From NCBI GenBank assembly GCA_012519845.1, contig JAAYPK010000082.1:1-64000 (forward strand): 64,000 nucleotides of DNA. Reading direction: 5' to 3'. The notes under the pieces are model-generated. The model saw only the letters and a list, made by a program, of their open reading frames with translations, was not told where the DNA came from and did no database searches. This document shows, one piece after another, positions 1-9,573 of this stretch (the first letter of the stretch is position 1; every line of letters begins with the position of its first letter). The position numbers and the translations under genes are program-made. Source of the DNA: Clostridiales bacterium. Its GTDB lineage: Bacteria > Bacillota > Clostridia > Clostridiales > Clostridiaceae.

Positions 1-1
1 A

Positions 2-1087
2 GAATTAGTTAATATGAGTAATGATAATATTCCTGAAATATTTGATGTTATTAAGGGAGAAAAATCAATTTTCATAATAATGGATTATATTGAAGGAGGA
101 TTTTTAAGAGATATTATTAGGGAGAATGGAAGTATTTCTATTGACTCTTCTGTAAAATATGGAATACATATTTGTGATGTTATTACAACATTATTAAATA
201 AAAATATAGGAATATCAGGCAATATTAAAGATAATATTATAGTAAATAATAAAAATCAGCTTTATTTTATTGGCATTACTTTTGCAAATAATAATGATGA
301 TTTAATAGAGAACATTGGGAAAGCATTATTTTTTATTTCAGAAGGAAAAGAAATAGATGATAATATTGTTTTCTTAAATAATAGTAATAAAAGATTTACT
401 AAATTAATAGAAGAAATGTTAGAAGGAAAATATAATGAAATAAGTGAAGTAAAAAAGGCTTTAGAAAAAATTAATAAAAGGAAAAATAAAGTTATTTTAA
501 TAACTTCCATTGCAATAATATTACTTATTATTGGGGCAGCATCTTATTATTATAACGTCTCAAAATCAAAGGATAATAATATACAAAGTCAAGATATACA
601 AGCAACTAATAATGAGTCTACAGACGAATCAATAAATGAAACAAGTAATAATGATAAAACAGAGGATGGTAGTGAAAAAAATAAGTCTACCTCAAAAACT
701 AAAGAAGATAAGGATCAGGTGAAAACTAAGGATACAAGTAGTGATGTTTTTGATGGTAAATTAAAAATAAATGTTAATTCATATAAAATAATAGATAAAA
801 GCGTTATGGTAGATTTTACTGTTGAAAATAATTATAGCAAAGACATAAAATTATGGTCTAGTGGAATATATTTAGTAAATGAAAATAATAAAAAGTTTGA
901 ATTAGATGAAGGTAAAAGATTAGAAGATAACATTGGAGAAATTGAAATCGCAAAAGGTAATAAAAACACTTATAAAGTTTATTTTAGAAATTATGAAGAA
1001 AGTAATGAATTAACTTTTGTAGTTAGTCAAATATGGTGTTTGGGATCAGAATCTATGAGTAAGGTAGTTAAGATAAAAATAAAATAA
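2..1087 (+). CDS. Membrane-anchored protein kinase-like protein (pseudokinase), 5' end cut by window
   Basis: The reading frame is open from the window edge, so the N-terminal lobe is missing; the first ATG at 14 is internal. The text NIPEIFDVI, then IIMDYIEGGFL, matches the HPNIP and hinge regions of PknB-type Ser/Thr kinases. The catalytic loop that should read HRDIKPxN is GNIKDN, and the DFG position reads FIGIT, so the catalytic Asp and the Mg-binding Asp are both gone. One membrane segment follows (about residues 160-180 from the ATG at 14), then a Ser/Thr/Asn/Lys-rich linker and a C-terminal beta-rich domain (about 250-357) that looks like the DUF4352 type of exported domain. I infer a non-catalytic sensor or scaffold in the membrane with its C-terminus outside. 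It ends directly against the convergent gene at 1088. Confidence 0.6.
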   Translation, partial: ELVNMSNDNIPEIFDVIKGEKSIFIIMDYIEGGFLRDIIRENGSISIDSSVKYGIHICDVITTLLNKNIGISGNIKDNIIVNNKNQLYFIGITFANNNDDLIENIGKALFFISEGKEIDDNIVFLNNSNKRFTKLIEEMLEGKYNEISEVKKALEKINKRKNKVILITSIAIILLIIGAASYYYNVSKSKDNNIQSQDIQATNNESTDESINETSNNDKTEDGSEKNKSTSKTKEDKDQVKTKDTSSDVFDGKLKINVNSYKIIDKSVMVDFTVENNYSKDIKLWSSGIYLVNENNKKFELDEGKRLEDNIGEIEIAKGNKNTYKVYFRNYEESNELTFVVSQIWCLGSESMSKVVKIKIK

Positions 1088-1621
1088 TTAAATTTCCATA
1101 TAACCATTTGGAAATATCTTAAGAAGCTTTTTAATATTTTCATTATCAATTTCATCATCTATTTTTAAAAAGGAAATATAAATAGCTTCCTTATTAGCAC
1201 CATTTAATTTGGATTTATTACTGCAACCATTAGTAAAGTTTATTGAGGCTTTTTCTAAGGTAAGGTTATTATTTTGAATTAGTGAGGACACTAGATTATA
1301 AGAGGTAGAATCATTTGGAGGACTTAAAATACCAGTAAAGAAGTTAATAGTAACATTTAAATAATATGCAATAAAAATATAACATTTATTTCTTAGTGTA
1401 TAATCTTTGAGATGTATATAGTGAAGCATAGTATCAATTACCATAATACTTTTGTTATAGTTTTCATAAAATATATGGTAAATTTCATGTTTATTAATTT
1501 CTTCGACCCAAGAATAGGATGGCATAGATTTTTTAATATTATCAATATTATCCAATACTTGTTCTAATTCATCTTTATTTTCAAGTAAATATAAAGCAAT
1601 GAAATTATTAATTAAACGCAT
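1088..1621 (-). CDS. Hypothetical protein, 177 aa
   Basis: I do not recognise this protein. It has a good ribosome binding site (AAGGAGATGAT) just before the ATG. The sequence is probably soluble and alpha-helical at the N-terminus, rich in Ile, Asn and Tyr, with no signal peptide and no clear membrane segment. It has two Cys residues, one inside a stretch NGCSNKSK. Its stop codon abuts the stop of the convergent pseudokinase gene with no gap and no terminator between them. It is divergent from the Cys-rich peptide/radical SAM cassette that starts at 1749, so it could be linked to that cassette, but nothing in the sequence shows this. Confidence 0.6.
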   Translation of the reverse strand: MRLINNFIALYLLENKDELEQVLDNIDNIKKSMPSYSWVEEINKHEIYHIFYENYNKSIMVIDTMLHYIHLKDYTLRNKCYIFIAYYLNVTINFFTGILSPPNDSTSYNLVSSLIQNNNLTLEKASINFTNGCSNKSKLNGANKEAIYISFLKIDDEIDNENIKKLLKIFPNGYMEI

Positions 1622-1748
1622 AATATCATCTCCTTATCTTACTTTAATTATACGCTAAAAATGTTGTAAAATTAAGCGATTTCAATGATTTTTTTGTCGG
1701 AATTAATGATATAATTATTTTAAACAAATTATTGCAGGGAGTGATCAC

Positions 1749-1886
1749 ATGAAATTTGAATTAATTGAAGTAAAAAATAAAAATAATTGTAATATTGATT
1801 GTTATCCAGATTTTTTTGATGATTGTAATCCAACCGCAGATGATTGTATGCCAATGGATTTACCAGAAGGAAATGTAAGTGAATAA
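1749..1886 (+). CDS. Candidate RiPP precursor peptide, 45 aa, Cys-rich with DCxP repeats
   Basis: A 45-codon frame with ATG at 1749 preceded by GGGAGTGATC. The N-terminal third (MKFELIEVKNKNN) looks like a leader. The rest holds four Cys at residues 14, 18, 26 and 33 and shows a motif D-C-x-P three times (DCYP, DCNP, DCMP) among many Asp residues. It ends in LPEGNVSE and overlaps the start of the radical SAM gene by 8 bases, so the two are translationally coupled. Small Cys-rich peptides next to radical SAM/SPASM enzymes are typical substrates of Cys-thioether (ranthipeptide) maturation. The clostridial Clo7bot, SCIFF and CLI_3235 precursor classes are the nearest concepts I know, but I cannot place this peptide in one. 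The maturation itself is inference. Confidence 0.7.
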   Translation: MKFELIEVKNKNNCNIDCYPDFFDDCNPTADDCMPMDLPEGNVSE

Positions 1887-3048
1887 TTATTTTGCATTTA
1901 ATGATAATGTGATTTTAGTTAAAGGTTATAAAAGAGCTCTTATACAAGATTTAATTAAGGGTAGAATATTTTCTATAAATGAAGACTCTAAAATAATATT
2001 AGAACAACTTTTACAGGGTAAATCTATAAATGAGGTAGTAAACAATGAAAAAAGAATTACAGGATTTTATGGCAAAGAAAAGGAATTAACAAAAAAAATA
2101 GATACTGCTTGGCTAGAACTTAGAAGAGCTTGCAATTTAAATTGTTGCCATTGTTATTTGGATTGTAATATAGATGGTGATAAGAATTTAGAATTAATGA
2201 CTATAGATAATTGGGAAAAAGTAATTATTCAATTAAAGGCATTAAAAGTTAAAACAATAATTCTAATAGGTGGAGAGCCCTTATTATTTAGGGAAATAAA
2301 TGAATTATTGAAATATTGTAAAGAAACAATACCAAAAGTTACTTTAGTTTTATACTCCAATTTAACTTTATTAAATAAGAATCATGTTAAAGCTATAAAG
2401 GAGACTAACACTAAGGTAATCACCTCCATTTATTCAAAAGATCCTAAGGTACATGATAGTATTACAGGAGTAAATGGGAGCTTCTATAAAACTGTCAATT
2501 CTGTAAAATTATTAACAAATGAAGAAATATTTGTTAAAGCTAATACAGTTTTAATGAATAAGAACGAATATAATATTGAAGAGACTTTACAATTTACTTA
2601 TGAATTAACAGGAGTTAAAAGTAAAATAGATAAAGTGAGAGATGTTGGACAGTCTAAAATTAGTTTATCACCTATAAATAAAATAGATACTAATTTTAAC
2701 ATTAAAGGAATAAAAGAAAATGAGTTTTTAAGAAATTATTCTGGTAATAGTTGTTTACAGGGAAAAATAAATATTTGTTGCAATGGAGATGTAACTCCTT
2801 GTATAATGGGTGATACATTTAAATCTTTGGATTTGAATGTAAAGAATAATTCTATAATGGAAATAGTACAGAAGTATCTTATACCACAATTTTGGAGATT
2901 GACTAAAGACAAAATTGAAAAGTGTAAGGATTGTGAATATAGATATGTTTGTAAAGATTGTAGACCTACTGCAGTTAATAAAAAGAATATTTGTAATTAC
3001 AATCCCTATAAAGGAGAATATGAAAATATTAAGCCTTCCATGAATTAA
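1879..3048 (+). CDS. Radical SAM/SPASM peptide maturase
   Basis: Starts at GTG 1879, inside the last codons of the 45-aa peptide gene, with AGAAGGAAA as ribosome binding site. Residues 1-60 resemble the short N-terminal region of Cys-rich-peptide maturases that can act as a precursor-recognition (PqqD-like) element. The radical SAM cluster motif is CNLNCCHC (C85, C89, C92). The SAM-binding GGEPL follows near residue 132. The C-terminal third carries a SPASM-type set of Cys (SCLQGK, ICCNGDVTPC, CKDCEYRYVCKDC, ICNYNP) for auxiliary iron-sulfur clusters. The length of 389 aa fits peptide-modifying SPASM enzymes. I infer that it crosslinks Cys in the upstream peptide. No exporter, protease or immunity gene is adjacent, so export would rely on genes elsewhere. 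Confidence 0.8.
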   Translation: MNNYFAFNDNVILVKGYKRALIQDLIKGRIFSINEDSKIILEQLLQGKSINEVVNNEKRITGFYGKEKELTKKIDTAWLELRRACNLNCCHCYLDCNIDGDKNLELMTIDNWEKVIIQLKALKVKTIILIGGEPLLFREINELLKYCKETIPKVTLVLYSNLTLLNKNHVKAIKETNTKVITSIYSKDPKVHDSITGVNGSFYKTVNSVKLLTNEEIFVKANTVLMNKNEYNIEETLQFTYELTGVKSKIDKVRDVGQSKISLSPINKIDTNFNIKGIKENEFLRNYSGNSCLQGKINICCNGDVTPCIMGDTFKSLDLNVKNNSIMEIVQKYLIPQFWRLTKDKIEKCKDCEYRYVCKDCRPTAVNKKNICNYNPYKGEYENIKPSMN

Positions 3049-3070
3049 TGTATCATGAAGGCTTAATATT
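3025..3070. terminator. Long inverted repeat, probable bidirectional terminator
   Basis: Arms AATATTAAGCCTTC and GAAGGCTTAATATT with an inner CATGA/TCATG pairing. It spans the stop codon of the radical SAM gene and the stop of the small convergent gene at 3069. The T-run is weak on both sides, so termination may be partial. Confidence 0.55.
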
Positions 3071-3203
3071 AATAAAAGTGATGAACTTTATTTTCTGATT
3101 CCTTTGCTTCAGGAAAGGAATATTGTAAATTACTTATAGGATTTATAGGAAATTTATCATTATTATAAATGTCATCATTATTTTTTTTATTTCTATTCTT
3201 CAT
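3069..3203 (-). CDS. Small hypothetical protein, 44 aa
   Basis: Read on the minus strand, an ATG at 3203 is preceded by AAAGGGTGATTTT, a strong ribosome binding site. The 44-residue product starts MKNRNKKNNDDIYNN, continues with DKFPINPISNLQYSFPEA and ends KVHHFY. It is hydrophilic, Asn/Lys/Asp-rich and has no Cys or membrane segment. I do not recognise it. It is convergent with the radical SAM gene and divergent from the next radical SAM gene at 3327. The good ribosome binding site and non-random composition argue that it is real. Confidence 0.5.
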   Translation of the reverse strand: MKNRNKKNNDDIYNNDKFPINPISNLQYSFPEAKESENKVHHFY

Positions 3204-3263
3204 AAAATCACCCTTTCTACTTATAGTATTGTCCTAAAAATAATTATTTATTCAGAATTTAAT

Positions 3264-3291
3264 TTGACATAAAAAAAGTAGAGTATATACT
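3264..3291 (+). promoter_or_regulatory. Sigma-A-type promoter for the radical SAM gene at 3327
   Basis: TTGACA, a 16-base spacer, then TATACT. The predicted start is about 30 bases before the ATG at 3327. It shows that this gene is transcribed separately from the cassette at 1749. Confidence 0.6.
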
Positions 3292-3326
3292 ATTCAATGG
3301 AGACTAAAAAATAGTAAGGAAAAAGT

Positions 3327-4202
3327 ATGAGAAAATTTAAAAGAATATACATTGAAACAACAAACATATGCAATTTAAATTGTGATTTCTGTCCAAAAAC
3401 CTCTCGTAGTGAAAGAGTAATGTCCATTGAAGACTTTGAAATAATAATTAATAAAATAAAACATATATCAGATCATATTTATTTGCATTTAATGGGAGAG
3501 CCATTAATTAATCCAAAATTAGAGAGCTTTTTAAAAATTGCCAATGATAATGATATAAAAGTAAATATTACAACAAATGGTACTTTGCTAAATAAAAATA
3601 CTGAAGTATTAATAAATTCAAAAGCTGTTAGACAAATAAATATTTCGTTACATAGCTTTGAAGGTAATAATAACAATATAGATTTTTATGAATATATAAA
3701 TAAAGTATTAGAATTCGTAAATTTGGTTTTAAAGAATACAGATATAATTGTAGGACTTAGGCTTTGGAATTTTGATAGTTTAAAAAATAAAGGTAATAAT
3801 AAACTTAATAAAGATATTATTCAGATTATTAAGAGCTTTTTCAATTATGAAGAAGATATTTTAGAAAATTTAAATAGAGATAAAAGGATAAAATTACAAA
3901 ATAAATTATATTTAAATTCTGCAGAGAAATTTAGTTGGCCTGACATTAATATTTCCTCATTAGGTAATAGAGGATTTTGCCATGGCTTAAGAGATCATTT
4001 TGGAATTTTATGCGATGGTACAGTAGTACCATGTTGTTTAGATAGTGAAGGTAATATTCCACTTGGTAATATATTTGAAGACAGTATAGAGAATATTATT
4101 AATGGAGATAGGGCTTTAAATATTTATAATGGTTTTTCCAATAGAAATAGAGTTGAAGCTTTATGCAAAAGATGTGGATATAGTGAAAAATTTAACAAAT
4201 AA
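3327..4202 (+). CDS. Radical SAM/SPASM domain protein, 291 aa
   Basis: The start ATG follows AAGGAAAAAGT. The cluster motif CNLNCDFC (C15, C19, C22) near the N-terminus and LMGEPLINP (the GGEP equivalent) define a radical SAM core. The C-terminal region has further Cys groups (GFCHG, ILCDGTVVPCCLDSEG, LCKRCGYS), a SPASM or twitch-type auxiliary cluster domain. There is no N-terminal precursor-binding extension, unlike the neighbour at 1879. Its substrate is not evident. It may be a free-standing clostridial radical SAM enzyme or a second modifier of the same peptide; its own promoter favours the first. Confidence 0.75.
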   Translation: MRKFKRIYIETTNICNLNCDFCPKTSRSERVMSIEDFEIIINKIKHISDHIYLHLMGEPLINPKLESFLKIANDNDIKVNITTNGTLLNKNTEVLINSKAVRQINISLHSFEGNNNNIDFYEYINKVLEFVNLVLKNTDIIVGLRLWNFDSLKNKGNNKLNKDIIQIIKSFFNYEEDILENLNRDKRIKLQNKLYLNSAEKFSWPDINISSLGNRGFCHGLRDHFGILCDGTVVPCCLDSEGNIPLGNIFEDSIENIINGDRALNIYNGFSNRNRVEALCKRCGYSEKFNK

Positions 4203-4245
4203 TAAAGATAAGAATGATTTATTTAATTTTTTAACGTTTATGTCG

Positions 4246-4275
4246 TTGGAATTCAATAATTAATTAAGATATAAT
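4246..4275 (+). promoter_or_regulatory. Sigma-A-type promoter for the L,D-transpeptidase gene
   Basis: TTGGAA, an 18-base spacer and a perfect TATAAT, about 30 bases before the ATG at 4305. Confidence 0.55.
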
Positions 4276-4304
4276 TATTATATTAACTACAGGGGGAATA
4301 TTTA

Positions 4305-5693
4305 ATGAATTTAATTACAAATAACAAAAAGAAAACAATTATTGTTATTTCTACAATAATAGGCATTATACTTTTGATATATTTTGGATATGCAATATAT
4401 TTTATGAATCATTTTTATTTTGGATCTAAAGTAAACGGAAGTAACATATCGCATAAAACGGTAGATGAAGTTGAAAACCAAATAAAATCATATATTTCAT
4501 CTTATTCTATTATGATAAAATGTAGGGATAATGTTGAAGAAACAATAAATGCAGAAGATTTAGGACTTGAATATATTTCAGATGGGAAAATTAAAGAGCT
4601 TAAGAATAACCAAAATCCTTTTACATGGGTAAAATCTCCTTTCCAAAGTGATGAATTAGAAATGAAGGTAAATATTAAGTATGATGAGGATTTATTTAAT
4701 AGTAAATTTAATGATTTATCTTGTTTAAAAGATGAAAATGTAATAGAACCTAAGAATGCATACATAGATTTTAACGGTAATGAATTTGAAATAAAAAGTG
4801 AAACTATGGGAAATAGAATTAAAAAGGATGACTTTTATAATAAACTTGTAGATGCAATTTTAAGTGGAAATCCAACTTTAGATTTAGAATCAGAAGATTT
4901 ATATGAAAAGCCAGCTTTTTATATGAATAGTGAAGCAGTAATAAATGCAAAGGATAATTTAAATAAATTTATATCAACTGCTATTACATATCAAATAGGC
5001 TCAGCCGTGGAAGGAATAGACGGTAAAACAATTAAGGATTGGGTAGGAGTAAATGAGGATTTTACAACTTACATAGATGAAGGAAAAGTTAGAAACTATA
5101 TAAATCAGCTAGCTTATAAATACAATACAGTTGGAAAAAATAAAAAATTCAAAACCACTGAAGGAAATGAAATTGAAATTGCAGGTGGTAATTATGGTTG
5201 GAGAATTAATATTGAAAAAGAAGTTCAGGATTTATATAATTCAATAGAAAATGGAGAAGTTGCAACAAGAGAGATTAATTATATCCAAAAAGCGCATGGA
5301 TATGGTGATAATGAAATAGGACAAACATATGTAGAAATTGATTTTACAAAGCAGCATATGTGGTTTTATAAAGATGGTAATTTAATTATTGATGGAGATA
5401 TAGTAACAGGTAATGTGTCATTAGGACATACTACACCAACTGGTGCCTACAGATTAAATTATAAAGAAGCTAACACTAATTTAGTTGGAGAAGATTATGT
5501 AAGTCCAGTGGCATTCTGGATGCCTTTTAACGGGAATATAGGCATACATGATGCAAGTTGGAGAGATGAGTTTGGTAAAGATATTTACTTAACTAACGGT
5601 TCTCATGGATGTGTAAATGCACCTTATGACCTTGCACAAGGAATATTTAATTTAATACAACCAGGAGATCCAGTTATATGTTATTATAGTTAG
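4305..5693 (+). CDS. L,D-transpeptidase (YkuD) with peptidoglycan-binding domain
   Basis: ATG at 4305 follows AGGGGGAATATTTA. The N-terminus has one uncleaved membrane anchor (about residues 10-35), so the protein faces the cell wall. Residues of roughly 40-320 contain two copies of the YoaR-like putative peptidoglycan-binding fold (repeats around IEPKNAYIDF and the ITYQIGS region). The C-terminal 130 residues form the YkuD domain with the invariant HDASWR and SHGCVNAP, whose Cys is the catalytic nucleophile. It makes 3-3 crosslinks in peptidoglycan. Length and domain order are as in the common clostridial ErfK/YbiS/YcfS/YnhG family proteins. It is transcribed alone, with a terminator at 5768. 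Confidence 0.88.
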   Translation: MNLITNNKKKTIIVISTIIGIILLIYFGYAIYFMNHFYFGSKVNGSNISHKTVDEVENQIKSYISSYSIMIKCRDNVEETINAEDLGLEYISDGKIKELKNNQNPFTWVKSPFQSDELEMKVNIKYDEDLFNSKFNDLSCLKDENVIEPKNAYIDFNGNEFEIKSETMGNRIKKDDFYNKLVDAILSGNPTLDLESEDLYEKPAFYMNSEAVINAKDNLNKFISTAITYQIGSAVEGIDGKTIKDWVGVNEDFTTYIDEGKVRNYINQLAYKYNTVGKNKKFKTTEGNEIEIAGGNYGWRINIEKEVQDLYNSIENGEVATREINYIQKAHGYGDNEIGQTYVEIDFTKQHMWFYKDGNLIIDGDIVTGNVSLGHTTPTGAYRLNYKEANTNLVGEDYVSPVAFWMPFNGNIGIHDASWRDEFGKDIYLTNGSHGCVNAPYDLAQGIFNLIQPGDPVICYYS

Positions 5694-5767
5694 AAATTAT
5701 TCTTTTTTGTTTTTAATCATTAAAGGGGATAAAGTAAGAACAAAAAGTTAATTTTAGAGAAAAACTA

Positions 5768-5826
5768 AGAGTGAATAGATAAGATTATTTGAGTAATATC
5801 TTAACTATTCACTCTCTTTTTTTTAT
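5768..5826. terminator. Intrinsic terminator, probably bidirectional
   Basis: Stem AGAGTGAATAG / CTATTCACTCT followed on the plus strand by CTTTTTTTT. On the minus strand the hairpin is followed by CTTAGTTTTTCT, so it can also end the nadABC transcript. Confidence 0.8.
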
Positions 5827-5881
5827 TGAGTTTTTTTTAACTTAATTATATTTTGGCTTGTCCAACAGAAACATAATTTAC

Positions 5882-6730
5882 TTATAATAAGGTTAAGTTC
5901 TTAAGTGATATATCAAGAACCTTAAATGAATGAGTTAAAGCACCTATTGAGATATAATCTACCCCTGTTTTAGCATAGTCTAAAATATTCTCTAAAACAA
6001 TGTTACCAGAAGTTTCAACAATCGCCTGGTGATTTATTAAATCTACCATTTCTTTTACCATATCTGGATTCATATTATCAAGCATTATAATATCTGCTTT
6101 TGCTTTTAATGCTTCAAGTACATCATTTTTACATTCAGTTTCTACTTCGATTTTTGTTGTAAAAGATGAATTTTGTCTAGCTAAATTTACTGCATTTTCT
6201 ATGCCTCCAGCTGCATCAATATGATTATCTTTTATTAATATTGAATCAGATAAAGAGTATCTGTGATTTTTTCCTCCACCACAAAAAACGGCATATTTAT
6301 CTAAATTTCTATATAAAGGTGTAACCTTTCTAGTGTCAACTACTTTTGCAGTAGTACCTTTAATGGCATCAACATATTTTTTAGTGAGAGTTGCAATACC
6401 ACTCATTCTTTGAAGTAAATTAAGAGCAATTCTTTCACCCATTAAAACATTTCTTGTGTTACCAGTAACCTCACCAATTTTATCACCTTTAGATACGGTG
6501 CTTCCTTCCTTAATATAAAAATTAACTTTTACATTGCCTACGATTTTATATACTCTTTCAAAAACAGGAAGACCACATATAATACCATCTTCTTTAGCAT
6601 GTAAATATACTATACAATTACTATTTTCATCTATTATACTATTTGTAGTAACATCGCCAAAAGGCATATCTTCATTTAATCCATCTTTAATTAACTTATC
6701 AATAATTAAATAATTTAACATAGTTTTCAT
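5882..6730 (-). CDS. nadC: Nicotinate-nucleotide pyrophosphorylase (quinolinate phosphoribosyltransferase)
   Basis: Third gene of the NAD operon: it converts quinolinate and PRPP to nicotinate mononucleotide and CO2. The text EDMPFGDVTTNSI, GERIALNLLQRMSGIAT, DTRKVTPLYRNLDKYAVFCGGGKNHR and KIEVETE are the family's conserved substrate-binding blocks. The length of 282 aa is normal. The frame overlaps the end of nadB by 32 bases; ATG at 6730 is kept because it lies just after AAAGGG, but an ATG three codons further in is also possible. The gene is the last in the operon; the terminator lies at 5768. Confidence 0.95.
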   Translation of the reverse strand: MKTMLNYLIIDKLIKDGLNEDMPFGDVTTNSIIDENSNCIVYLHAKEDGIICGLPVFERVYKIVGNVKVNFYIKEGSTVSKGDKIGEVTGNTRNVLMGERIALNLLQRMSGIATLTKKYVDAIKGTTAKVVDTRKVTPLYRNLDKYAVFCGGGKNHRYSLSDSILIKDNHIDAAGGIENAVNLARQNSSFTTKIEVETECKNDVLEALKAKADIIMLDNMNPDMVKEMVDLINHQAIVETSGNIVLENILDYAKTGVDYISIGALTHSFKVLDISLKNLTLL

Positions 6731-7973
6731 CTACCCTTTCTTTAAGGAAATTAATTAAATCTTCTTTAGAAGGATAATTAGAATTTTCATTACATGTAAG
6801 CTCTGAACTTATTTTTTTAGCGCATCTATAACCAAAAACTAAACCTTCAAGTAGTGAATTACTTGCAAGTCTATTATTACCATGAACTCCAGTACATGCA
6901 GTTTCACCTAATGCATATAATTGGCATAAGCTTGTTTCACCATAAGTATTTACTTTTATACCTCCCATAGCATAGTGGTGGGCTGGAGAAACTGGAAGCA
7001 TATCCTTTTCCATTGCATATCCTCTTTTTAAACATTCATTATAAAGATAAGGAAATCTTGTCATTAAAAATTCCTTTTTTAAATGGGTTAAATCAAGATA
7101 TACATAAGGCTTGTCTGCTGCTAACTCTATTTCTTTAAGTATTGCTCTTGAAACAACATCTCTTGGTTTTAATGGATTAACAAATTCTTCACCTTTAAGA
7201 TTTCTTAATTTACCACCTTCACCTCTTAAAGATTCAGAAAGTAAAAGCCTTTTACCAATAGTATTTTCTTCATATAAAACTGTAGGATGAAGCTGAAGAT
7301 ATCCTATGTCTTTTATTTCAATATTATTTTTTAAAGCAATTGCAATTCCATCACCTGTTAAGGAAGGAAAATTAGTAGTTGATTTAAATAATCCACCTAG
7401 TCCTCCTGTTGCTAAGATTGTACATCTTGAATGGATTTGAAAAGTATCATTATCATATTGACATATTCCACCTAAACATTTATCTTCTCGTTTAATAATG
7501 TCAACTAATTTACAATTTTCAATTACTTCTATGTTTTTTCTCTTAGATAATACTTGGTAGAGACTTTCCATAACGTATTTCCCAGTTTCATCTTTAACAT
7601 GTACAATCCTAAATTTACTATGACCACCTTCTCTAGTATAAGAAAAAGTATTATTTTCATTTCTATCAAATTGTACATTAAGATCAACTAATCTACTAAT
7701 GTTATCTCTTGATTCTTTAACTAAGGTTTCAACAGCTTCTACATTGTTTTTATAATTTCCAGCTATAAGAGTATCTTCAATATATGATTCATAATCATCT
7801 TTATTTAAAGCAGTAGAGATTCCCCCTTGAGCTAAATATGAATTGCAGTCTTTTAATCCTTCTTTTGTAATTAATATTACTTTTAAACTATCGTCTAAAT
7901 TTAAAGCTGAATAAACACCTGCTACTCCTGTACCAACTATTAAAACATCACAGGTCTTGATCACTTTAGTCAT
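6699..7973 (-). CDS. nadB: L-aspartate oxidase
   Basis: Flavoprotein that oxidises L-aspartate to iminoaspartate, the substrate of NadA. The N-terminus has the FAD-binding VLIVGTGVAGVYSALNL. YLAQGGIS, SLRGEGG and SPAHHYAMGGI are succinate dehydrogenase/aspartate oxidase family blocks around the active site, and GNNRLASNSLLEGLVFG closes the FAD domain. At 424 aa it lacks most of the C-terminal helical domain of the E. coli enzyme (about 540 aa); short forms like this are usual in clostridia. ATG lies inside the nadA stop (ATGACTAA overlap), so translation is coupled. Confidence 0.94.
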   Translation of the reverse strand: MTKVIKTCDVLIVGTGVAGVYSALNLDDSLKVILITKEGLKDCNSYLAQGGISTALNKDDYESYIEDTLIAGNYKNNVEAVETLVKESRDNISRLVDLNVQFDRNENNTFSYTREGGHSKFRIVHVKDETGKYVMESLYQVLSKRKNIEVIENCKLVDIIKREDKCLGGICQYDNDTFQIHSRCTILATGGLGGLFKSTTNFPSLTGDGIAIALKNNIEIKDIGYLQLHPTVLYEENTIGKRLLLSESLRGEGGKLRNLKGEEFVNPLKPRDVVSRAILKEIELAADKPYVYLDLTHLKKEFLMTRFPYLYNECLKRGYAMEKDMLPVSPAHHYAMGGIKVNTYGETSLCQLYALGETACTGVHGNNRLASNSLLEGLVFGYRCAKKISSELTCNENSNYPSKEDLINFLKERVDENYVKLFNY

Positions 7974-8874
7974 CTCCCAACAAATGCATATTTTGTAAAG
8001 CAGTTAATGCCTTAACTCTTTTTTCTTCATCGATTATTATTTCATTACTTTCATTTAATAAGCAGTTATACAGTTCGTCCAAAGTTGTCATTTTCATATT
8101 TGGACAAATCATAGGTTCCTTTAATGGTATAAATTCTTTATTTGGACTTTTGTTTTTCATTTGATATAGAACACCTTCTTCAGTAACTACAATAAAGCCT
8201 TTAGAAGGAGATTTAACTGAATAATTTATTAATTCAGAAGTACTTCCAATGTAATCAGCTATACTTCTTACACCTTTATTACATTCAGGATGGACAAGTA
8301 CTTCATAGTTAGGGTATTCTTCTTTTAATTTAAGAATATCTTCTTTTTCAACTCTTTCATGTGTAGGGCAGAAGCCTTGATATAGAATAAAGTTTTTATC
8401 TTCAAAATGCTCACTAATATATTCTCCAAGATTTCTATCAGGAACAAAAATAATATCTTTTTCTTTAATATTATTCATGATTTTTAAGGCTGAAGAGGAA
8501 GTTACACAAACATCAGAAATTGCCTTTATGTCTAAATTAGTATTAATATAACTAATTATTTTGGCATTTGGATGTTCTTCTTTAAGCTTTAAAACTCTAT
8601 CTAATATAGCCATATCAGCCATTGGGCATCGTGCCTCTTTAGCAGGTAATAAAACTCTTTTATTAGGAGATAATATTTTAGCACTTTCTGCCATAAATCC
8701 AACTCCACAAAAAATTATAAGATTTGAAGTGGATTCAACTGCTTTTTTGCTTAAAAAGTATGAGTCTCCAACAATATCTGCAATTTCTTGTATTTCTGGT
8801 CTTTGGTAAAGGTGAGCTAAAATTAATGCCCCTTTTTCTTCTTTAAGTCTAAGTATTTCTTTTACTAAATCCAA
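7966..8874 (-). CDS. nadA: Quinolinate synthase
   Basis: Condenses iminoaspartate with dihydroxyacetone phosphate to quinolinate on a [4Fe-4S] cluster. The expected Cys occur in FCGVGFMAESAKIL, GFCPTH and MICPNMKMT; HPECN and YIGST are substrate contacts. Its 302 aa is normal for the family. The start is TTG at 8874, set 10 bases after AAGGAG; no ATG fits. It is the first gene of the operon, with promoter and candidate operator directly upstream. Confidence 0.95.
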   Translation of the reverse strand: MDLVKEILRLKEEKGALILAHLYQRPEIQEIADIVGDSYFLSKKAVESTSNLIIFCGVGFMAESAKILSPNKRVLLPAKEARCPMADMAILDRVLKLKEEHPNAKIISYINTNLDIKAISDVCVTSSSALKIMNNIKEKDIIFVPDRNLGEYISEHFEDKNFILYQGFCPTHERVEKEDILKLKEEYPNYEVLVHPECNKGVRSIADYIGSTSELINYSVKSPSKGFIVVTEEGVLYQMKNKSPNKEFIPLKEPMICPNMKMTTLDELYNCLLNESNEIIIDEEKRVKALTALQNMHLLGDD

Positions 8875-8893
8875 ACTAATACAACTCCTTAAC

Positions 8894-8911
8894 GTGTGAA
8901 ATGTTTAACAC
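8894..8911 (-). promoter_or_regulatory. Candidate operator of the NAD operon (imperfect palindrome)
   Basis: GTGT and ACAC arms 18 bases end to end (GTGTGAAATGTTTAACAC on the plus strand), just downstream of the predicted transcription start of nadA. A repressor here would block the operon. The NiaR family represses NAD genes in many Firmicutes; assigning this site to NiaR is inference. Confidence 0.4.
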
Positions 8912-8921
8912 TATTTCCTAA

Positions 8922-8950
8922 AGTTTAAAACAGAAGAATTTTTTTGTCAA
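8922..8950 (-). promoter_or_regulatory. Sigma-A promoter of nadABC
   Basis: Minus strand TTGACA (8950-8945), a 17-base spacer, TAAACT (8927-8922). The predicted start near 8915 places the palindrome at 8894-8911 immediately downstream. Confidence 0.65.
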
Positions 8951-8963
8951 TTGTATTTTGCTC

Positions 8964-8992
8964 TGAATAAATATGAGGGAAATGTCAATAAT
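8964..8992 (+). promoter_or_regulatory. Candidate forespore (sigma-G-like) promoter of the BofC-like gene
   Basis: TGAATA, a 16-base spacer, then CAATAAT, close to the sigma-G pattern TGAATA / CATAATA. It sits 20 bases before the start codon at 9013. In Bacillus subtilis bofC is made in the forespore, which agrees, but this is a pattern match only. Confidence 0.35.
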
Positions 8993-9012
8993 CATTTGTA
9001 AGGAGTGATTAT

Positions 9013-9573
9013 ATGAAGAGGAAGATTCAAACTGTTATTATTATATGTATGTTATTATTGACATTTTTTTCTGTTAGTTATCTTGTTTCAAATATTATTA
9101 TTTTAGATAAAAGGGAAAATAATAGTGTTAATGTTAATACTAATAATGAAGTTTTTATAAAGGATGATATGAAAATATCTTTAAGTAAAAGTGGTTTAGT
9201 AATTGAAGAAAAAAATTTAAGTGAGTTAAAAGAAAAATATGGACTTAATGGGCAGGTTACAGAAGAAAGCCTTAATGAAGCCTTAAGCAAAGAAGGGTAC
9301 GTATTAACTGAAAATACTACTAATACAATTTATTATTCAAGAACAGTTGCACCTAATAAGTATTATGTAATGAATTATAATGATAATTTAGCAATATATA
9401 TAAGTAATGATAAATGTGAACTTAAAATTGAAGATAAAGAGAAGGATATTTATACAGATAGTAAAAAATTCTCTCATTTAAGGGAGATGGATAAAAATAA
9501 AATTCTAAATTATGAAATGGAGTTTAATACAAAACAAGAAGCAGAGGCTGCTTTATCAGAATTAATATCATAA
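9013..9573 (+). CDS. BofC-like sporulation protein
   Basis: The product (186 aa) has one N-terminal membrane segment (about residues 5-30, rich in Ile/Leu/Val), so its bulk is outside the membrane or in the intermembrane space of the forespore. The C-terminal part, from YYVMNYNDNLAIYIS to KQEAEAALSELIS, has the layout of the BofC C-terminal domain (a beta hairpin with N-x-L-A-I-Y, then a Lys/Glu-rich stretch ending in a helix xEAExxLxxxxS). Position supports this: bofC lies just upstream of ruvA-ruvB in Bacillus subtilis, and the same order holds here. BofC tunes pro-sigma-K processing in Bacillus; whether it does so in clostridia is not settled. The start follows AAGGAGTG. Confidence 0.55.
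   Translation: MKRKIQTVIIICMLLLTFFSVSYLVSNIIILDKRENNSVNVNTNNEVFIKDDMKISLSKSGLVIEEKNLSELKEKYGLNGQVTEESLNEALSKEGYVLTENTTNTIYYSRTVAPNKYYVMNYNDNLAIYISNDKCELKIEDKEKDIYTDSKKFSHLREMDKNKILNYEMEFNTKQEAEAALSELIS

Follow-up and report, generated by a model that had tools for sequence, protein, structure and literature searches.

Sequence comparison suggests a radical SAM/SPASM enzyme acting at every Cys-any-Pro triplet of its partner peptide, three to twenty-eight per peptide

A precursor–maturase pair and its occurrence in the genus

A very short cysteine-containing ORF that runs into a radical SAM gene raises the questions of whether the two belong together, what feature of the peptide the enzyme recognizes, and what it makes of it. 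Such a pair occurs in the window, i.e., the whole stretch of 64,000 nucleotides of clostridial DNA analyzed here. The precursor peptide gene (1749..1886, plus strand) encodes 45 amino acids with a leader-like start, MKFELIEV, and the radical SAM/SPASM peptide maturase gene (1879..3048, plus strand), which has a GTG start, encodes 389 amino acids; the two ORFs overlap by 8 bases. The peptide has Cys at positions 14, 18, 26, and 33, of which C18, C26, and C33 stand in DCYP, DCNP, and DCMP and form three Cys-x-Pro (CxP) units. The two ORFs, their overlap, and the Cys positions are as the first-pass annotation had given them. Three CxP units arose in 218 of 200,000 shuffles of the peptide (about 1 in 1000), and chance is rejected as their source because homologous peptides exist. 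The window pair is a real gene pair.

The maturase matches the Pfam families Radical_SAM (PF04055, E 4.9e-17, above the cut-off) and SPASM (PF13186, scoring 22.9 bits where the cut-off is 21.5). Its radical SAM motif CX3CX2C is made up of C85, C89, and C92, and its SPASM Cys are C292, C308, C349, C352, C358, C361, and C372. Alignment and models place a shortened PqqD-like region, putatively leader-binding (RRE), at its N-terminus (1879..2040, plus strand). A stem-loop across the end of the maturase gene (3025..3070, plus strand; MFE -19.7 kcal/mol, z -7.55, 0 of 200 shuffles equally stable) is a candidate end of the two-gene transcript; it is followed by no T run, and a scan for terminator patterns found none. 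The promoter scan of the window was uninformative (16 found, shuffle mean 16.4), and Rfam gave no match at the gathering score over positions 1–8000.

The window peptide matched no Pfam, NCBIfam, or PHROG family, and none of the best 25 of 55 NCBIfam matches of the maturase reached its cut-off, in agreement with the earlier description of a compact precursor/maturase pair lacking a matching family model. The comparison with Clo7bot, SCIFF, and CLI_3235 precursor models that had been proposed for this peptide gave 0 families for it and for the L067 peptide. For three other CxP peptides, NCBIfam returned only lantibiotic or streptosactin matches below cut-off, with none for that of L036.

Of 68 genomes of the genus, 11 carry the enzyme (E 1e-25, counting fragments and broken copies) and seven the peptide (E 0.001 or better); every one of the seven also has the enzyme (Fisher p 3.4e-7, with related genomes not independent and kinship uncorrected). 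An eighth peptide match, at E 0.06, lies inside an unrelated 295-codon ORF. The peptide is encoded directly upstream of the orthologous enzyme in four genomes (G032, G027, G072, and G060), and the search for a conserved short peptide beside orthologous enzymes, put forward in the first-pass annotation as a check on its proposal, has a positive outcome. In G087, peptide and enzyme lie on different contigs, while G081, G086, G080, and G035 have the enzyme with no peptide match; another peptide query was equally negative in G081 and G086. The enzyme is sporadic in the family, as it is present at E 1e-80 in at least 10 of 206 genomes (up to eight candidates scored per genome).

The genus peptides have the leader start FELxE. 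C14 of the window peptide is an extra Cys that is not conserved in the genus, and the position of the Asp before C18 is occupied by A, E, or N in other genus peptides, only C-x-P being common to all. The window and G032 peptides differ over 19 aligned codons by four silent and four replacement changes, and the G032 and G087 peptides by seven silent and two replacement changes, so that constraint on the peptide is visible but modest.

Cys-x-Pro peptides beside distant relatives of the enzyme

Nine encoded relatives of the enzyme were found in the genome collection (L032–L040). Eight of them, L032–L039, from Sporomusaceae, Selenomonadales, and unclassified Bacillota, share 28–30% identity over nearly the whole enzyme, and all eight adjoin a longer peptide with 8 to 20 CxP units and the leader motif PKWxxP (8/8); the ninth, L040, aligns over residues 76–359 only, with 25% identity, and was used as a control. 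In L032, from Pelosinus propionicus, the enzyme spans 7998–9230 and the peptide roughly 9267–9572. Broader searches added G198, G507, G532, and G537, each with the enzyme beside a CxP-rich peptide. The 161-residue peptide of G507 has 28 CxP units, that of G532 has seven, and the two peptides of G198 have 9–10 and seven, respectively; the CxP peptide gene of G537 contains masked bases. These broad draws gave at least 3 of 398 and at least 4 of 391 genomes (own genome counted), which are lower bounds as up to four candidates were scored per genome. Overall, enzyme relatives of 27–33% identity from Sporomusaceae, other Clostridia, and other groups adjoin peptides with 7–28 CxP units; the clade spans Clostridia and Sporomusaceae and is therefore not a curiosity of one genome. 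A search with the Lucifera peptide among 60 relatives of G507 gave no match and also missed the 28-unit peptide of G507 itself, and is uninformative. In G198, the two tandem CxP peptides and the maturase are directly preceded by the gene of a 202-aa protein (L071:116-721) that NCBIfam does not match.

Sixteen peptides were compared residue by residue, omitting L044 and L045 as duplicates of L003, the interrupted G085 peptide, and L074, whose gene holds a masked-base run and whose positive score rests on the part after that run. Among the 16, 177 of 183 Cys stand within CxP. The x is taken by 17 different residues, and the residues before Cys and after Pro are variable as well, with no aromatic or Lys partner fixed nearby. 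Only Cys and Pro are invariant, which makes Cys the natural target. Successive CxP Cys are never fewer than three residues apart (a spacing of two is impossible by the motif itself), which fits separate three-residue units. The triple DCxP of the first-pass annotation is present in the window peptide, but as a code it is rejected, because Asp precedes only 12 of the 177 CxP Cys; the code of the clade is CxP.

The association was set against controls by a fixed rule, under which a CxP-rich ORF has 30–220 codons, at least three CxP, and at least 60% of its Cys in CxP. Such an ORF adjoins 17 of 20 clade loci vs 0 of 34 other radical SAM loci (Fisher 2.4e-11). A nearly identical rule gave none among 80 loci on viral contigs. 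The 34 controls were L006–L031, L040, L072, L083, L084, and L087–L090; left out of the 20 clade loci, as broken or cut, were L005/L049, L042/L064, L046, L047, and L179. In a 48-row tree, for which 26 of the 30 control rows offered met the length limits, the 17 positives together with L041, L043, and L048 form one clade with a support of 99/95. L043 comes from a genome that carries the peptide elsewhere, while L048 is a maturase paralogue of G087, 31–33% identical and downstream of a B12-type radical SAM gene. The sister rows L072, L087, and L083 showed no neighboring CxP-rich ORF, although L083 stops at a contig edge upstream. Control L090 scored negative, its CxP-bearing 471-aa neighbor lying outside the length and fraction limits.

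Some further observations were made at these loci. In G881 (L090:1468-4197), the gene of a papain-like protein (by reading) with eight CxP among 23 Cys and a tail of CACTPRPE, CRACSPVPE, and similar stretches has a different radical SAM/SPASM gene immediately downstream. A second cassette in G087 (L060:7871-11519) carries, on a single strand, genes for a small peptide containing DCGP once, a methyltransferase-like protein, a B12-binding radical SAM protein, and the maturase paralogue. A phage or plasmid origin was considered and rejected: 35 plasmid and two phage records match, none reaching 60% identity; both phage rows, like the 20 listed for plasmids, lie at 23.6–29.4%.

Cluster ligands, related systems, and probable chemistry

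Ten Cys are invariant in 22 sequences of the enzyme, comprising the three of the radical SAM motif and seven in the SPASM domain; no eighth SPASM Cys is common to all, and some subgroups carry further Cys of their own. An Asp situated between the last two SPASM Cys is likewise invariant. The clade spacing, CX10GX4CX40CX2CX5CX2CX10C, resembles that of the sactisynthases RumMC1/2, whose CX2CX5CX2C portion is identical to it and in which three Cys are consistent with holding AuxI (PMC8188230). The SPASM Cys set claimed for the window enzyme is borne out, with a spacing like that of thioether maturases. The closest solved enzyme by sequence profile is SkfB (E 1.6e-29), the Foldseek lists are headed by SkfB, SuiB, and CteB, and anSME (4k37) is the best solved match for the SPASM region.

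Systems that link a radical SAM/SPASM enzyme to a precursor are already known, and the window pair resembles several of them. Ranthipeptides (SCIFF/CteA-CteB and freyrasin PapA-PapB) likewise pair a precursor that is short and rich in Cys with a radical SAM enzyme bearing an N-terminal leader-binding and a C-terminal SPASM domain, and SCIFFs are widespread in Clostridia (PMC8326336). The window clade differs from them in using CxP, in up to 28 copies, with no fixed Asp or Thr acceptor; CteB matches the clade enzyme by profile and fold but not as an orthologue, and no named ranthipeptide maturase model is among the best 25 NCBIfam matches of each of four enzymes, all of which are below cut-off. 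Sactipeptide systems (SkfB, AlbA, and RumMC1/2) supply the best solved profile match, but the NCBIfam scores are far under their cut-offs (AlbA 82 vs 850 bits, SkfB 50 vs 300 bits), and sactipeptides are not known to feature CxP. Sactipeptide clusters usually carry export or immunity genes. The grasp-with-spasm maturase model (TIGR04193) is the top NCBIfam model for the Pelosinus enzyme among the matches listed, at 119 bits, yet under the cut-off of 175 bits.

The Asp-Cys repeat pathway "Cluster 59" also has a radical SAM enzyme, a small gene set, and a precursor with Asp-Cys up to six times; compared by description only (PMC9062424), it differs in having a recombinase gene, while in the CxP clade it is Pro that is fixed and Asp precedes Cys in 12 of 177 cases. 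A literature search, for which most subscription papers were beyond scope, found no paper on CxP with radical SAM enzymes, and Cluster 59 (PMC9062424) may overlap. The Cys-x-Pro code and its many-fold repetition were not found described.

As a whole, the best explanation, with a probability of roughly 0.58, is that the adjacent enzyme modifies the peptide, introducing one local thioether per CxP while the leader is held, for use in the cell. The comparisons establish the pairing, the CxP rule, the clade, and the conserved set of cluster ligands; beyond this, we infer the binding of the leader, the thioether chemistry, the atom that accepts the sulfur, and a use in the cell in preference to an antibiotic one, as follows. 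The peptide would be the substrate of the enzyme encoded beside it, and Cys-x-Pro would be the recognition unit of the maturase clade. The N-terminal PqqD-like domain probably holds the leader, through FELxE in the genus and PKWxxP in the Sporomusaceae-type peptides. The substrate Cys would be bound close to an auxiliary iron-sulfur cluster whose ligation is incomplete, and the 5'-deoxyadenosyl radical would activate a C-H bond inside or beside the same C-x-P unit, giving one small thioether ring per unit, in which the sulfur of Cys is bonded to a carbon of either x or Pro. Ring closure would be repeated unit by unit, three times in the window peptide and up to 28 times elsewhere. A thioether is favored by the set of seven SPASM Cys, by how close the enzyme is to thioether maturases, and by the thioether reported between Cys32 and Thr34 (i, i+2) of CteA made with CteB (PMC8326336).

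This local thioether reading competes with several others. One is suggested by anSME, a radical SAM/SPASM enzyme that acts on the motif C-x-P-x-R and so has C-x-P in common with the clade, besides being its best SPASM-region match: each CxP Cys might be oxidized at its beta carbon, to formylglycine or otherwise, resulting in a many-aldehyde peptide. This is unlikely, as none of the 22 rows keeps the anSME residue Asp277, which follows the second SPASM Cys of 4k37 and which we take to be the catalytic base (Ile, Val, or Glu stands there instead), the Arg at +4 is not conserved (six cases), and no anSME model is among the best 25 of 55 NCBIfam matches of the window maturase. Moreover, seven SPASM Cys are common to the rows, with further ones in some subgroups, and not eight as in anSME, whose auxiliary clusters are fully ligated by Cys (PMC8326336). 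The clade substrate also differs from that of anSME in being a repetitive short peptide.

Still less probable is chemistry of the PapB type, in which Cys would form a bond to the beta carbon of an Asp further along the peptide and Pro would just shape the chain. The first-pass annotation had read the layout as that of a ranthipeptide (Cys-Xn-Asp), and for the window peptide this is possible, an Asp lying within seven residues of each CxP Cys (3/3) and PapB accepting n of 0 to 6 (PMC9413430). It is not the rule of the clade: Asp or Glu occurs in the next seven residues for 37 of 177 CxP Cys, and counting Asn and Thr as well brings this to 102 of 177; 4 of 177 show precisely the CX3[DE] spacing, and repeats such as CWPRQQ and CRPCPPSQ contain neither Asp nor Glu. 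No CcpM-type model is among the best 25 NCBIfam matches listed per enzyme. Least likely of all is some other change (epimerization, a C-C crosslink, or Pro dehydrogenation), with the Cys serving as metal ligands or in disulfides of the finished peptide; it fits poorly with Cys and Pro being the sole invariants and with the lack of a fixed aromatic or Lys partner near Cys.

If the local thioether reading is extended to a class, these would be unnamed ribosomal peptides in which one radical SAM/SPASM enzyme makes the same sulfur-based modification at every CxP, from three in 45 residues to 28 in 161, to give a string of very small thioether rings, each of three residues, in which Pro is a partner or makes the turn; we hold this tentatively, at slightly below even odds. 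If true, Cys-x-Pro would join the short list of codes that direct where a radical SAM enzyme acts, and a code that is lenient toward the middle residue and recurs up to 28 times per chain would be of use in making peptides that contain numerous small rings. It would also test how far auxiliary-cluster chemistry is common to thioether maturases and sulfatase-activating enzymes. The interpretation of the first-pass annotation is, overall, partly supported.

Condition of the window copy and its surroundings

The window maturase lacks 26 residues after residue 54, corresponding to residues 55–80 of the G032 orthologue in the alignment. Among six same-genus relatives in this alignment, the stretch is complete in three, 23 residues long in the G081/G087 pair, and 11 in the paralogue L048. 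In the model of the G032 orthologue (mean pLDDT 90), the N-terminal domain, by its secondary structure, consists of strands followed by three helices in a winged-helix fold and, judged by eye, resembles known leader-binding (RRE, PqqD-like) domains; it is putatively one of them. The missing stretch includes the third helix (59–74), and leader peptides bind at the third helix of such winged-helix domains. The model of the window maturase (mean pLDDT 80) has no third helix, a junction of low confidence, and a confident barrel. The N-terminal region had earlier been called fit for leader binding, a view not supported for the window copy, from which these 26 residues are missing; the window cassette may act differently or be declining.

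A decaying remnant, with the peptide intact and an enzyme that may no longer act, would be compatible with any of the chemical readings. It is a minority possibility, favored by the residues lost from the putative leader-binding domain relative to orthologues and by the visibly broken copies elsewhere (G080, G035, G085, and G955), and opposed by the intact reading frame, the presence of all ten cluster Cys, and the confident barrel of the model. G080 and G035 have internal stops and no full-length enzyme match; in G085, the reading frame of the peptide is broken and that of the enzyme is split over two contigs; in G955, the enzyme matches only from profile position 99 onward and adjoins two genes read as IS21-like. 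The broken, split, or shortened copies in four genomes (L047, L005, L064/L042, and L181) include a peptide start beside an enzyme end with the middle missing, interrupted frames, a contig-split enzyme, and a truncated enzyme adjoined by IS21-like genes, a pattern that hints at loss on more than one occasion.

The surroundings of the cassette vary. When the five flanking proteins of the window were compared with 13 orthologue loci by tblastn, only a weak radical SAM similarity of the 3327–4202 gene was seen; flanking proteins are not kept, and the cassette is therefore a two-gene unit whose surroundings change. The radical SAM gene that follows it (3327–4202) and the other flanking genes were rejected as cassette members, being absent beside orthologous cassettes. 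Close relatives share some neighbors (G032 with G072, and G081 with G087). Pfam and NCBIfam recognized no exporter, protease, or immunity gene among the flanking window genes scanned, as had been noted before. In Lucifera butyrica (L034), the pair adjoins tig, clpP, clpX, and lonB, each above its NCBIfam cut-off, and the other seven distant loci of the L032–L039 set have neighboring ORFs similar in length and order. This neighborhood in Sporomusaceae-type genomes would suit a cellular rather than an antibiotic role.

Within the window, the 177-aa ORF at 1088–1621 matches nothing. A 44-codon ORF on the minus strand (3069–3203), situated between the two radical SAM genes, has no family match and is unseen at orthologous loci. 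The second radical SAM/SPASM gene (3327–4202) encodes 291 amino acids, and its best NCBIfam match, below cut-off, is a tungsten-cofactor maturase model. The start of the ORF at 14–1087 is weakly similar to the middle of protein kinases, and its position near the contig start indicates that it is probably the end of a longer gene.
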